From: Bacteroidales bacterium
Lineage (GTDB): Bacteria; Bacteroidota; Bacteroidia; Bacteroidales; UBA1715
Direction of reading: 5' to 3'
Assembly (NCBI GenBank): GCA_017516865.1
Contig: JAFXAU010000009.1
Location: forward strand, 1-64,000
DNA length: 64,000 nt
Below are positions 46,565 to 51,606 of the stretch, piece after piece. Made by a program: the position numbers and the translations under genes. Below the pieces are notes generated by a model, which was not told the DNA's origin, did no database searches, and worked only from the letters and a program-made list of their open reading frames with translations. Each line of letters begins with the position of its first letter. Position 1 is the stretch's first letter.

Positions 46565-47068
46565 TTAGATTACACCCAAAACAAGAAGTAATGCGTAAAT
46601 CATACCTGGCAACCAACCAAGGATAGTCAAAATCAAGTCAATCCAAAATTCAGTTCCAAGACCGTTGTTCAAGAATACTGCTAGCGGTGGAATGAAGATA
46701 GAAAGAAGAACCAATACTACTTGGTCTGCTTCAGTTGCGTTAGCAACAGCAGGATTGTCTGGCAAGTTGTTGATCAATTCTGCACGTTCAGAATCGTTCA
46801 TTTTCTTAACTTCTTTTACGAAGTTTTTAACTGCCTTCTTTTCTTCTTTAGTGAATTTTACTTTCTTAGAAGGTTTGTTTGCAACTGTTTTTTGTGCAGG
46901 AGCTACAACTTCTTCAGCAACAACAGCTTCTGTTGCTACTTGTTCTTCAACTACAACAGCTTTTGCTTGTGATTCCAATGCAAAACCGTGATTGTTTGTT
47001 TTTGGCGCACTTGCGAAACCTAATGTGCAAAGTGCTAAACCAGCGATGAATAAAACTGTTTTTTTCAT
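46565..47068 (-). CDS. YqaE/Pmp3 family protein with signal peptide and Lys-rich domain
   Basis: 167 residues. A signal peptide (cleavage near 'GFASA'), a Val/Glu/Ala-rich stretch, a Lys-rich helix ('KKVKFTKEEKKAVKNFVKEVKKM'-type, key Lys and Glu residues), and a C-terminal YqaE/Pmp3 membrane domain ('LSIFIPPLAVFLNNGLGTEFWIDLILTILGWLPG'-type with conserved IPP and GW-PG). Pmp3 proteins are usually only ~55 residues. This longer form occurs in Bacteroidetes and may work in the envelope under ionic stress. Promoter at 47122-47129. Confidence 0.85.
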   Translation of the reverse strand: MKKTVLFIAGLALCTLGFASAPKTNNHGFALESQAKAVVVEEQVATEAVVAEEVVAPAQKTVANKPSKKVKFTKEEKKAVKNFVKEVKKMNDSERAELINNLPDNPAVANATEADQVVLVLLSIFIPPLAVFLNNGLGTEFWIDLILTILGWLPGMIYALLLVLGVI

Positions 47069-47099
47069 ACTAATTAATTATTAGATTAAAATTACTTGT

Positions 47100-47117
47100 T
47101 GTTATCGTTCGATAACA
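47100..47117. promoter_or_regulatory. Palindrome downstream of the YqaE promoter
   Basis: tgttatcg-tt-cgataaca has perfect 8-bp arms. It lies between the -7 box (47122-47129, minus strand TATTTTTG) and the YqaE start, about at the transcription start, so an operator or leader hairpin is possible. Confidence 0.5.
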
Positions 47118-47121
47118 TTGA

Positions 47122-47129
47122 CAAAAATA
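47122..47129 (-). promoter_or_regulatory. Promoter -7 box for the YqaE gene
   Basis: The minus strand reads TATTTTTG, 53 bp upstream of the ATG. Confidence 0.55.
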
Positions 47130-47218
47130 GAAATTTTTTTTTATTCTGTTAATCAAAAAGTATAGTTTTATTGTGGCATTGAATTTTTTATTACATTAGG
47201 GCGATTTTTTGTTGAACA

Positions 47219-48574
47219 ATGAAAATTATAATTGCAGGAGCAGGAGAAGTCGGGCAGCATTTGGCTCGGATTTTGGCGGACGACCATCACGAAGTGACTG
47301 TCATAGACGTTGATTCTCAAAATCTTAAACAACTTTCGCTCCATCTTGACATATTGACTGTGCAAGGTTCTGCCTTGACGATTTCTGTTTTGAACGAAGC
47401 AGGCGTGGCTGCGTGCGATTTGTATATTGCAGTGACGCATTTCCCTGAAATGAACGTTGCCTCGGCGGTGATTGCAAAGCATCTTGGTGCACCTCACACG
47501 ATTGCTCGTGTCCGTGACCCTGAATTGTTGCAGGGAAAAAACATGAAATTGTTCCAAGAAATGGGAATAGATTCCATTATCTATCCTCAGGCACTTGCTG
47601 CTCAGGAAATTGCCATGTTTGTCGAACGGGCCGCCACTCGCGAATCATTCGACTTCGCCGACGGCTTGCTGTCGTTGTTTGTGCTAAAAGTAGAAGAGAC
47701 TGCGTCGGTCGTGGGAAAATATATGCAGGAAATTATTCCTACGCAGGAAGAATTGCAGAAATATCGTGTGATTGCCATTAAGCGTGGCTTTTCTACTATT
47801 ATCCCGAAAGGCGACGACATCTGTCAGCCGGGTGATATTCTCTATGTGGTGAGCAACCGTCAAGGGACGAAAAAAATGCTCGAAACATTCGAAAAGAAGG
47901 AAATCGCTGTCTCTCAGGTTATGATTCTTGGCGGAAGCCGTACCGGTCGTGCGACGGCAAAAATTCTTCAGAAACAGTTCGATGTCAAGTTGATTGAAAT
48001 TGACCCTGTAAAGGCGAAGAAGCTGTCGGAACAATTGGAAAACACAATTGTGATAAACGGCGATGGTCGAAATATGGACTTGCTTGTGGAAGAAGGCATT
48101 CGTAACACCGATGTGTTCATTGCAACGACCAGCAATGCCGAGACGAATATTCTCTCGTGCTATTTGGCTAAGCGTGTCGGGGTGAAACGTACAATTGCCG
48201 AAGTTGAAAATGTCGATTACATCGGTCTCGCTGCCGATATGGGTATTGATACGTTGATAAACAAGAAAACCATTGCCGCCAATAGCATCCACAAGTATAC
48301 AATGAGCAACTCCGCCGATATTTCCTCTACACGTCATCTGACGCAAAGTGACGCTCAGATTCTGGAAATTATCGTACGCGATGGAATGAAAATAACTCGA
48401 AAATCGTTGATGGATATGCGTGATTTCCCGAAAGATGCAGTTGTTGGTGGAGTGGTTCGTGGTAAAAATGCGTTTATCCCATCAGGTTCTACGCAGATAG
48501 CCGACGGCGACAAAGTTCTTGTGTTTGCTCTGCCTGCTGCGGTGAACGAGGTGAAGAAATTTTTTGAAAAATAA
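47219..48574 (+). CDS. trkA: Trk potassium uptake regulator TrkA
   Basis: 451 residues. Two RCK units: the first NAD-binding loop is 'GAGEVGQHLARIL' near residue 6, the second 'LGGSRTGRATAKIL' near 238, each followed by a TrkA-C domain. TrkA gates TrkH by binding nucleotides. A 58-residue gene and trkH follow. Confidence 0.95.
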   Translation: MKIIIAGAGEVGQHLARILADDHHEVTVIDVDSQNLKQLSLHLDILTVQGSALTISVLNEAGVAACDLYIAVTHFPEMNVASAVIAKHLGAPHTIARVRDPELLQGKNMKLFQEMGIDSIIYPQALAAQEIAMFVERAATRESFDFADGLLSLFVLKVEETASVVGKYMQEIIPTQEELQKYRVIAIKRGFSTIIPKGDDICQPGDILYVVSNRQGTKKMLETFEKKEIAVSQVMILGGSRTGRATAKILQKQFDVKLIEIDPVKAKKLSEQLENTIVINGDGRNMDLLVEEGIRNTDVFIATTSNAETNILSCYLAKRVGVKRTIAEVENVDYIGLAADMGIDTLINKKTIAANSIHKYTMSNSADISSTRHLTQSDAQILEIIVRDGMKITRKSLMDMRDFPKDAVVGGVVRGKNAFIPSGSTQIADGDKVLVFALPAAVNEVKKFFEK

Positions 48575-48576
48575 TT

Positions 48577-48753
48577 ATGAGAACAAAAATCTTACTTTCG
48601 GTCGGAATGGCACTTGGAATTGCCGCATTGGTCCTTATGCTGATTGATGCCGCGGATTCAAAAACTGTGACGACTTTGCTTGTAATAGGATTGGTGTGTG
48701 TTACTATAGAATTTATAGTAGGACGGAAAGATTCTGACAATACCGAACAATGA
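48577..48753 (+). CDS. 58-aa membrane protein between trkA and trkH
   Basis: Begins MRTKILLSVGMALGIAALVL and ends GRKDSDNTEQ. Two hydrophobic helices (~5-23 and ~32-48) make a small hairpin in the membrane. It starts 2 bp after the trkA stop, and its stop overlaps the trkH start by ATGA. This tight packing argues that it is translated. It might be a small accessory subunit of Trk, like KdpF in Kdp, but that is inference. Confidence 0.75.
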   Translation: MRTKILLSVGMALGIAALVLMLIDAADSKTVTTLLVIGLVCVTIEFIVGRKDSDNTEQ

Positions 48754-50195
48754 ATTTCAAAGTAATATCGAGAATAATCGGCATGTTGGTGCTGTTAGAG
48801 GCAGTGTTGATGATGTTGTGTCTTGCAGTGGGCGTATCGTACGGCGAAGATGTGAGTGGTTTTGCCATTTCCGCAGGTGCGACAGTGCTTATTGGATTGC
48901 TGTTTTATGCCCTTTCGTATGGGGCATCGAAAAGTGTCGGCCGTCGCGAGGGTTATTTTGTCGTAGGAAGCGTGTGGCTTGTTTTTTCGTTGATTGGAAC
49001 ATTGCCGTTCATGTTGACGAATAGCACCAATTCGTTTGTCGATGCTTTTTTCGAGTCAATGTCGGGGTTTACTACGACGGGAGCGACGATTTTTGCCGAT
49101 ATTGAAGTGCTTCCGAAACAAATTATTTTGTGGCGTAGCCTGATGCAGTGGATTGGCGGTATGGGAATCATCGTCTTGACCGTCGCCGTAATTCCGATGA
49201 TGGGCATGGGAGGAATGCAGTTGTATACAGCCGAAGCATCGGGTCCGTCGAAGGACAAAGTGCATCCACGAATTAAAGACACAGCCAGCAGACTCTATTT
49301 AATATATGTAGCATGTACGATTTTAGAACTTGTTTTGCTGATGGCAGGTGGAAACAATTTCTTTGAGTCGCTCATACTTACGCTTTCGTGTATTTCGTCG
49401 GGTGGATTTTCGAGTCAGAATGCAAGTGTTGCTGAAATGTCACCGTATACGCACTATGTGGTGATGTTTTTTATGTTCATTTCAGGAGTGAACTTTGTGC
49501 TGATTTATATGGGTTTACGAGGCAAATTCCGTACCGTCGCCCGTGACGAAGAATTGCGAAATTATATTTTTGTAATCGTTTTTGCCACCGTCATAATTTT
49601 ACTTGTCAATCTGTGGAAAATCGGCTCGTTCGACAGCATTGAGGAACAAATTCGAATAGTATTGTTCCAAGTAATTGCATTTCTCACCACGACAGGTTTC
49701 ACAATTACCGACTACTCGCTCATGCCGAACGCTTCGATGATGTTGTTCTTTATTTTGACATTTTTCGGCGCTTGTGCCGGTTCCACGACGGGGTCGATAA
49801 AAATAGTGAGGATTTCCATTTTGTTGAAAAACAGTTACTTGGCATTAAAACAAATTTTACATCCCAATGCAATACTTACGTTACGATATAGCAAAAAACC
49901 AGTCGAAGGAAAGGTCATTTCAAATGTGTATGCCTTTATAGTAATGTATATTTTGATTTTCCTGATAGGAACTTTGGTTCTGTCGTTTTTCGGACACGAT
50001 TTTTACACGGCATTTTCAGCGTCGGCATTGTCAATTTCGAATGTGGGAATTGGTTTCTGTCCGTCGGGCATGATGGTTGAATTCAGTTCGTTCCCCGATA
50101 TGTCTAAAATACTGATGTCGGTGCTTATGCTGATAGGAAGATTGGAAATCTTTACAGTTTTGTTGCTGTTTGTCCCGGCATTTTGGAAAAAATAA
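48750..50195 (+). CDS. trkH: Trk/Ktr potassium transporter TrkH
   Basis: 481 residues, polytopic. Pore-loop elements with 'ESMSGFTTTGATIF', 'SCISSGGFSSQNAS', 'IAFLTTTGFTITDY' and 'ISNVGIGF' match the four selectivity-filter repeats of TrkH. It moves K+ with TrkA. A degenerate palindromic repeat lies after the stop. Confidence 0.95.
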   Translation: MNFKVISRIIGMLVLLEAVLMMLCLAVGVSYGEDVSGFAISAGATVLIGLLFYALSYGASKSVGRREGYFVVGSVWLVFSLIGTLPFMLTNSTNSFVDAFFESMSGFTTTGATIFADIEVLPKQIILWRSLMQWIGGMGIIVLTVAVIPMMGMGGMQLYTAEASGPSKDKVHPRIKDTASRLYLIYVACTILELVLLMAGGNNFFESLILTLSCISSGGFSSQNASVAEMSPYTHYVVMFFMFISGVNFVLIYMGLRGKFRTVARDEELRNYIFVIVFATVIILLVNLWKIGSFDSIEEQIRIVLFQVIAFLTTTGFTITDYSLMPNASMMLFFILTFFGACAGSTTGSIKIVRISILLKNSYLALKQILHPNAILTLRYSKKPVEGKVISNVYAFIVMYILIFLIGTLVLSFFGHDFYTAFSASALSISNVGIGFCPSGMMVEFSSFPDMSKILMSVLMLIGRLEIFTVLLLFVPAFWKK

Positions 50196-50199
50196 CCCT

Positions 50200-50227
50200 G
50201 TAGAAACCTGTCATGGCACGTCTCTAC
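50200..50227. repeat. Degenerate palindromic repeat
   Basis: gtagaaac...gtctctac are complementary save one base; the centre contains ctgtcatggcac. It belongs to the GTAGAGAC family and lies between trkH and the aro genes. Confidence 0.55.
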
Positions 50228-50292
50228 AAAGAATGTCTATTTTATTTGTAAAATGCACAGCTTTTTTGTTTCTTCGTTGCAAAAATAAAATA

Positions 50293-51606
50293 ATGTCAAC
50301 ACAGGTTTTTGCGGTTACCGGCAATCCGATTTTACATAGCAAAAGTCCGAATATGTTCAATACCATGTTTCGGCACTGCGGGCTTGATGCGTCGTATTTA
50401 TATTATGCGGCAGCGTCGGCGGAAGAGGCAATGTTTTTGTTCCGTCAGTTGGGAACAAAGGGAATGAATGTGACGTCTCCATTTAAAGAAACAATCGGCG
50501 AATATCTTGATGTGATTCACGACGAGGCGGATATTCTCGGCAGTGTGAATACGGTTGTTTCCGTTGATGGCGTACTACATGGATATAATACTGATTTTTA
50601 TGGTGTTACGCAGAGTTTCTTCGATGCGGGAATTACGCTGAAAGGCAGAAAATGTCTTGTCGTTGGTGCTGGCGGAGCAGGAAAGGCTGCTGCCTATGGT
50701 CTGTACTCTGTTGGGGCGGAGGTGACGATGGTGAACCGCACGGGCGAAAAAGCCCGTAAAGCGGCAGAACTTATTGGTTGTAAGTGTGGAGAGTTTTCCG
50801 ATTTGGAACGTTTGGTTTCGCAAAACGAAATCATTCTTTCGGCTTTGCAACAAAATGTAAATCCTGTTGATGCTCAGTGGCTTACAAAGCAACATATTAT
50901 TTTTGATGCAAATTACAAAGGTTCGTTGCTTGTTGACGAGGCAAAAAAACGAGGCTGCACGATAGTTTCTGCCGAGGATTGGCTTTTGAATCAGGCTGTT
51001 GCTTCGTACAAATTATTTTTAGGTTCCGAACCCGACAAGGAGGTCATGCGGTCGGGATTGCGGTTGCCAACACTGTCGCAGAAGAATCATGTGCTTGCGA
51101 CGATAGGAATTATGGGAGCGGGAAAGACTTCGCACGGTAAGGTGCTGGCGGAAAAATTAAACTATCAGTTTAAGGATATTGACAAGGAAATTGTTCTTCG
51201 CGAAGGTATGCCGATTACGCAGATTTTTTCAGAGAAAGGAGAGCCGTATTTCCGTGAATTAGAACGTGATACGTTGCAAAAAACATTCTCTCCCGACACG
51301 CAAAATATACTTTCTTGTGGCGGTGGAATTGTGGTGAACGAACCCAATCGTACATTATTAAAGGAAAACGCCCTTGTATTGTGGCTCTATGCAACCCCTG
51401 AAGCAATCATAAAACGGGTGAACATATCGAAACGGCCGTTGTTGCAATGCGAGAATCCACAGGAAAAACTTCGTCAGTTGTTGGTGGAACGGAAAGATAT
51501 GTACGTTAATACTGCTCATGTGGTTTTTAGTACGGAGAAACGTACAAAATATGAATCAACAGATATTTTGAAAAACGAAATAGAAAAAATATGGGGACAC
51601 AAATAA
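50293..51606 (+). CDS. aroE/aroK: Fused shikimate dehydrogenase-shikimate kinase
   Basis: 437 residues. AroE part (~1-245): 'GNPILHSKSPNMFN' substrate site, 'NVTSPFKE' with catalytic Lys, 'NTDFYG' and NADP loop 'GAGGAGKAAAYG'. AroK part (~265-437): Walker A GIMGAGKTS near 271-279, 'DKEIVLREGMPITQIFSEKGEPYFRELE'-type shikimate site (Asp, Arg), and 'CGGGIV'. It would do two successive steps: dehydroshikimate to shikimate to shikimate 3-phosphate. aroA overlaps the end by 16 bp, giving the next step. The start is the ATG at 50293. Confidence 0.92.
   Translation: MSTQVFAVTGNPILHSKSPNMFNTMFRHCGLDASYLYYAAASAEEAMFLFRQLGTKGMNVTSPFKETIGEYLDVIHDEADILGSVNTVVSVDGVLHGYNTDFYGVTQSFFDAGITLKGRKCLVVGAGGAGKAAAYGLYSVGAEVTMVNRTGEKARKAAELIGCKCGEFSDLERLVSQNEIILSALQQNVNPVDAQWLTKQHIIFDANYKGSLLVDEAKKRGCTIVSAEDWLLNQAVASYKLFLGSEPDKEVMRSGLRLPTLSQKNHVLATIGIMGAGKTSHGKVLAEKLNYQFKDIDKEIVLREGMPITQIFSEKGEPYFRELERDTLQKTFSPDTQNILSCGGGIVVNEPNRTLLKENALVLWLYATPEAIIKRVNISKRPLLQCENPQEKLRQLLVERKDMYVNTAHVVFSTEKRTKYESTDILKNEIEKIWGHK

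Follow-up and report, generated by a model that had tools for sequence, protein, structure and literature searches.

A two-helix small membrane protein encoded between trkA and trkH in one Bacteroidales genus, a candidate accessory subunit of the potassium channel TrkH

Among bacterial systems for K+ uptake, Trk is very widespread; it has been described as the channel subunit TrkH together with TrkA, with SapD giving ATP dependence in E. coli. A locus from a Bacteroidales bacterium, analysed here as a stretch of 64,000 nucleotides (hereafter the window), raises the question of whether a further protein belongs to this system in some lineages, as a small open frame lies between its trkA and trkH genes. 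In the window, trkA (47219..48574, + strand), encoding the cytosolic RCK protein that regulates the Trk K+ channel (451 aa), ends in a TAA stop at 48572-48574 and is followed by a 2-bp spacer (tt, 48575..48576, +) and then by the small ORF (48577..48753, +), which opens with an ATG at 48577, closes with a TGA at 48751-48753 and specifies a protein of 58 aa. Its end overlaps the start of trkH (48750..50195, +; ATG at 48750; 481 aa) in the tetranucleotide ATGA (48750..48753, +). The initial annotation had reported the 58-codon frame, the 2-bp gap behind trkA and the ATGA overlap, and each of these was recovered exactly in coordinates, strand and length. Both neighbours are recognizable Trk components: TrkA carries RCK domains (Pfam TrkA_N, 3.2e-47; TrkA_C, 1.9e-21) and scores 485.5 bits on NCBIfam NF007038 (cut-off 374), while the channel subunit TrkH matches PF02386 (7e-63), aligns over its length with the Vibrio TrkH of known structure (VpTrkH; 3.4e-84) and possesses four pore-loop motifs together with the D4 arginine (GRLEIF).

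The same annotation placed the frame in the only gap of the trk operon, which is accurate for the trkA-trkH interval, but the gene run extends into a shikimate dehydrogenase-kinase gene in five of the seven genomes of the genus. In the window, this gene (50170-51606, +) is a single ORF fusing shikimate dehydrogenase and shikimate kinase domains (Pfam PF08501, PF01488, PF18317 and PF01202). It lies between trkH and aroA in the window and in the loci L079, L081, L082 and L084, and no copy of it was found after trkH in L080 and L083. A scan of 47000-50400 returned 10 promoter-like and 7 terminator-like elements versus 8.0 and 3.3 in shuffled sequences, respectively, numbers that are near those of the shuffles.

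Whether the frame is a gene at all has to be settled before its role can be considered. A single window is weak evidence, because a frame of at least 56 codons that opens within the first 12 bases also turned up in 306 of 20,000 simulated gaps of matching dinucleotide composition, which speaks for a spurious ORF. The comparison with relatives is more informative. A TrkA search of 60 relatives matched 49, of which 30 loci were fetched and read, and the small frame occupies an invariant slot between trkA and trkH in all seven genomes of the window's genus. In the other six, the spacer behind trkA measures 1-10 bp and the proteins start with MR[TSG]K, and the junction with trkH is ATGA in four of the seven genomes, TAATG in two and an abutting TAA-ATG in one. 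The frame contains no in-frame stop in any of them and differs in length only by multiples of three, while the other two forward frames over the gene hold 6-13 and 2-5 stops. Pairwise differences over the seven genomes fall on the three codon positions as 373/167/669, and Nei-Gojobori dN/dS ranges from 0.015 to 0.387 in the 17 of 21 pairs for which it was computable, synonymous change being saturated in the remaining four and synonymous sites overall being near saturation. The seven proteins agree at 18 positions, among them G14, G38, C41 and E45. Identity to the window copy within the genus is 50-66% for the small protein, 87-92% for TrkA and 73-75% for TrkH. Pooled pN/pS amounts to 0.337 for the small gene, 0.087 for trkA and 0.212 for trkH, so that constraint is weakest on the small protein but still present. 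Codon-position bias and saturated synonymous change accompany the frame in seven diverged genomes. A chance frame is ruled out by this conservation across genomes, for which length alone would be insufficient, and the spurious-ORF reading retains a negligible probability. This seven-genome comparison is strong evidence that the small frame is a genuine protein-coding gene under purifying selection.

The encoded protein is predicted to be a two-helix membrane protein, a claim of the initial annotation that both hydropathy and structure modelling support. The Kyte-Doolittle profile peaks twice, with a mean of 2.75 over residues 5-23 and of 2.36 over residues 31-49, and AlphaFold2 models a helical hairpin with helices at residues 2-22 and 28-56 (mean pLDDT 73.6, from a thin alignment with n=7). 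Helix 1 of the model (48580..48642, +) holds the invariant residues S8, V9, G14, I15, A16, V19 and L20, and helix 2 (48658..48744, +) holds the invariant T32, L35, G38, L39, C41 and E45, with a charged, variable tail at its end. Because basic residues occur at both ends and the loop is acidic, the positive-inside rule suggests that both termini are cytoplasmic. No credible match to the protein was found in Pfam, NCBIfam or PDB. The best Pfam E-value for the window protein (0.012) belongs to DUF6358 (PF19885), at 16.2 bits and thus below the gathering cut-off of 28.4, and four of the seven genus members match this family at E <=1 (best E 0.012). Like the small ORF product, DUF6358 proteins are hydrophobic and about 60 aa long, but apart from the score under the cut-off they differ in genomic context, since TrkA and TrkH are both absent from the fetched locus in the DUF6358 carriers (5 of 148 phylum genomes). 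No paper on DUF6358 was found in the open-access literature. Matches to SLATT, Multi_Drug_Res and other Pfam families were weak throughout and scattered across genus members; the best PDB sequence match (E 0.011) covered a 39-residue stretch of a large transporter and was taken as hydrophobic noise; and the single match in a plasmid collection (E 2) was disregarded. A fold search with the hairpin model gave 28 matches, none at <=0.001, a two-helix model being uninformative for such a search.

A possible source of such a hairpin lies in the adjacent gene, as the N-terminal hairpin of TrkH (D0, residues 1-60) has the same topology and size and a similar basic start, which would be expected if the small gene were a duplicated or split-off D0. 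However, profile-profile comparison by hhalign detected no similarity to residues 1-60 (probability 0.41%, no better than for other TrkH segments, of which the D4 end scored highest at 4.1%), and TrkH retains its own D0, making this origin very improbable.

Is the protein, then, a general component of Trk that has been missed? Among the other 23 of the 30 loci read, 17 have TrkH right behind TrkA with no such frame in between, and six lack a TrkH within ~1.5 kb. In a broader spacer survey, TrkA and TrkH matches were paired by coordinates in 139 Bacteroidales genomes, leaving out of the count TrkH matches with no trkA nearby on their contig. This yielded 108 trkA places in 103 genomes, 80 of them followed immediately by TrkH (median spacer 25.5 bp); the 28 places that lack an adjacent downstream TrkH on their own contig and strand are uninformative either way. 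The small gene is absent from all 79 adjacent trkA-trkH pairs outside the genus in this sample, 74 of which have spacers of <=91 bp and five of >=149 bp (G128, G145, G022, G088 and G039). None of these five long gaps holds a two-helix ORF, the 2.5-kb gap of G039 having been judged by eye on forward ORFs only. In the sister genera g2, g3 and g4, the members read (for g4, G009 and G013 out of three genomes) show spacers of ~12-116 bp without the small gene. When a profile of the seven proteins was run against 393 Bacteroidales genomes, the three genus members among them were alone in giving strong matches (E <1e-31). A pattern scan of 84,980 named species genomes, by a method that reaches close relatives only, returned six loci, which are the genus genomes G001-G006, all of them MAGs labelled Bacteroidales bacterium (UBA3754, UBA1715, two from horse faeces, one from yak reticulum and one from water buffalo rumen). 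Conservation and purifying selection, whose absence would have told against the initial annotation, hold within the genus (7/7 genomes), but the gene is not a general Bacteroidales feature (0/79 pairs). Presence wherever the transporter is found, a trait of some accessory subunits only, is likewise lacking (0/79 pairs). Since the other Bacteroidales pairs examined are without the gene, the small protein is not a missed general Trk component, and since the sister-genus members read also lack it, the sequence comparison is most simply read as a single gain on the genus stem, before the known members of this Bacteroidales genus of the rumen and hindgut diverged.

A lineage-specific gain leaves room for a small membrane protein that serves an independent purpose, such as membrane stress or general membrane homeostasis, and that happened to be inserted in the trk operon and has been kept there by linkage. 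This is the chief rival to a role in Trk. Weakly similar stand-alone two-helix ORFs of ~60 aa adjoin unrelated genes in other Bacteroidales families, and the best per-genome E-value of the genus profile beyond the genus, over the 393 genomes, is 2.9e-4. Such ORFs occur after an ileS-like gene (L052/L104), before a MoxR-like gene (L054/L055/L105) and between rpsP- and aspS-like genes (L107), these neighbour names having been read off the sequence without a search. Adding two of the stand-alone ORFs to the profile caused those two and L107 to score well, a result that is partly circular. Judged by sequence, the stand-alone ORFs may be distant kin or look-alikes of the small protein, and possibly make up a loose family of small hairpin proteins. 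Their identity to it, however, is only 26-27% over hydrophobic sequence, and the gene itself always sits in the trk slot (7/7), with no second copy found in the window's own genome (one match in total). Taken together, an independent function seems a real but rather doubtful prospect. An exchange within the genus also bears on linkage: in G002 versus G004 (L082 versus L084), identity is 85-98% from the small gene onward, across trkH and past it, compared with 79-86% over most of trkA, and the stretch upstream of trkA matches poorly. An apparent recombination breakpoint lies near the 3' end of trkA, from ~3791 onward, with the gene that follows trkH on the more similar side. Because identity is high from the small gene onward, the small gene and trkH were inherited together in this exchange, a pattern for which plain linkage would account as well as function.

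The tight junction with trkH also admits a reading in which the frame acts mainly in cis, its translation coupling the synthesis of TrkH to that of TrkA while the peptide itself matters little. A stop/start overlap or abutment with trkH is present in 7/7 genomes, compared with the median spacer of 25.5 bp in the sampled pairs. On the other hand, purifying selection acts on the amino acids, both helices are kept with their invariant residues, and other genera manage without such a coupler, so that this reading is unlikely.

It is in the branch history of TrkH and TrkA that the analysis adds something new. Branch lengths of the two proteins were compared on one fixed topology of 22 genomes, with G022 omitted (its TrkH is cut short) and alignment columns holding more than two gaps removed. 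The trees cover 23 or 22 genomes, a subset of those found, to which the separate-tree set adds three second TrkH copies; genus g4 is absent from them. On the genus stem, TrkH has a length of 0.831, the longest branch of its tree, versus 0.170 for TrkA. The resulting ratio of 4.9 is the highest among branches with a TrkA length of at least 0.05, the others there ranging from 0.00 to 2.1. Where the TrkA branch is shorter, as it is for several branches within the genus, ratios are unstable and at times higher. Separate trees agree on the genus stem (0.753 for TrkH versus 0.208 for TrkA). The stem of family f1 shows the reverse, with a long TrkA (0.584) versus TrkH (0.148); because its ratio is 0.25, branch rates vary in both directions. 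Type-II sites, at which at least 75% of outgroups agree but the seven genus members all share another residue, account for 24 of 239 conserved sites in TrkH versus 2 of 164 in TrkA (Fisher p=2.7e-4, a statistic that ignores relatedness and the choice of branch). In five control clades, the counts for the two proteins were close to each other (0-8 for TrkH and 0-9 for TrkA). On these branch comparisons, the acceleration of TrkH coincides with the arrival of the small gene on the same branch, where TrkA is not accelerated.

Many of the genus-specific sites in TrkH fall in pore loops and core besides possible docking surfaces. The D4 pore loop has shifted from NVGPGIG.VGP to NVGIGFC.SG in the genus (NVGIGFTQSG in one member), with the filter-region glycines and the D4 arginine kept. 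A weak cluster of genus-specific changes is seen at TrkH 365-377 (E365A, R368Q, L369I, I376L and P377T), and within residues 353-392, 5 of 18 conserved sites have changed (p=0.023, uncorrected over seven regions whose borders are the author's estimate). In VpTrkH, the dimer interface is made up of helices D3M2b and D4M1, and the protein has two long intracellular loops, of which the D3-D4 loop is one (PMC6987127). On two NCBIfam models, the window's TrkH scores lower, at 282.5 versus 295.2-346.6 for five outgroup TrkH proteins, and 333.9 versus 361.1-418.6.

Among known systems, the nearest in kind is KdpF, a protein of ~29 aa that resembles the small protein in being very small, hydrophobic and encoded in a K+ uptake operon. 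KdpF is a single helix and stabilises Kdp, whose channel subunit KdpA shares a superfamily with TrkH (PMC8385062). In contrast to KdpF, which has one helix and is part of Kdp, the protein described here has 58 aa and, by hydropathy and model, two helices; with KdpA found in none of the seven genus genomes, it does not belong to the KdpF family. AcrZ, CydX and similar small membrane proteins bind large membrane complexes and tune or stabilise them (PMC7267776, PMC4325964, PMC6005532), a role that the small protein would share. The auxiliary factor on which Trk activity in E. coli depends, SapD/TrkE (PMC9898762), differs in being an ABC protein conferring ATP dependence, as a reference title in the same paper puts it, rather than a small membrane protein. 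No small Trk subunit was found to be reported in the open-access literature searched, a scope outside which most subscription papers lie.

On balance, we lean slightly towards the view that the small protein is a lineage-specific two-helix accessory subunit that stabilises or tunes TrkH. Under this proposal, the small gene would be co-transcribed with trkA and trkH as an operon, translational coupling to trkH would lead to the small protein being made together with TrkH, and the protein would insert into the membrane as a hairpin, pack against TrkH there and stabilise the channel or tune its gating, roughly as KdpF does for the Kdp pump. The gene would have been gained on the branch where TrkH changed fast in and around its pore and D3-D4 region. 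The place that the gene always occupies, its start/stop coupling to trkH and the rapid change that TrkH underwent on that branch all accord with an accessory role like that of KdpF. The locus has what is expected of the transporter accessory class, namely a conserved small membrane protein in a transporter operon (7/7 genomes, two helices, purifying selection), and the lack of a paralogue together with the stem and type-II excesses in TrkH also counts in favour of a subunit. Against it, tight spacing or overlap is common for any operon neighbours, the small protein varies faster than TrkA or TrkH, every other sampled Bacteroidales Trk system works without it, and the acceleration of TrkH could be unrelated to the small gene. 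The swing of branch ratios in both directions and the many genus-specific TrkH sites in pore loops and core also weigh against a subunit.

The accessory-subunit proposal gains from the apparent simplicity of potassium uptake in these organisms. Each of the seven genus genomes has a single TrkH match, and searches for the KdpA and Kup families found nothing in any of them, although both were positive in a Bacteroides control genome. Based on these searches for TrkH, KdpA and Kup, Trk may be the only recognised K+ uptake route of the genus. A second TrkH-like match, lacking in the window's genus, is present in the sister genera g2 and g3 (G007, G008 and G011; L046-L048). A stronger version of the proposal, which we put forward tentatively as the less probable form, is that the small protein became a third, obligate Trk subunit, having joined while the D4 pore loop and the D3-D4/dimer region of TrkH were being remodelled, so that a three-component Trk would serve as the genus's only recognised route for K+. 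If true, this lineage would provide a natural test of how small membrane proteins enter a channel.
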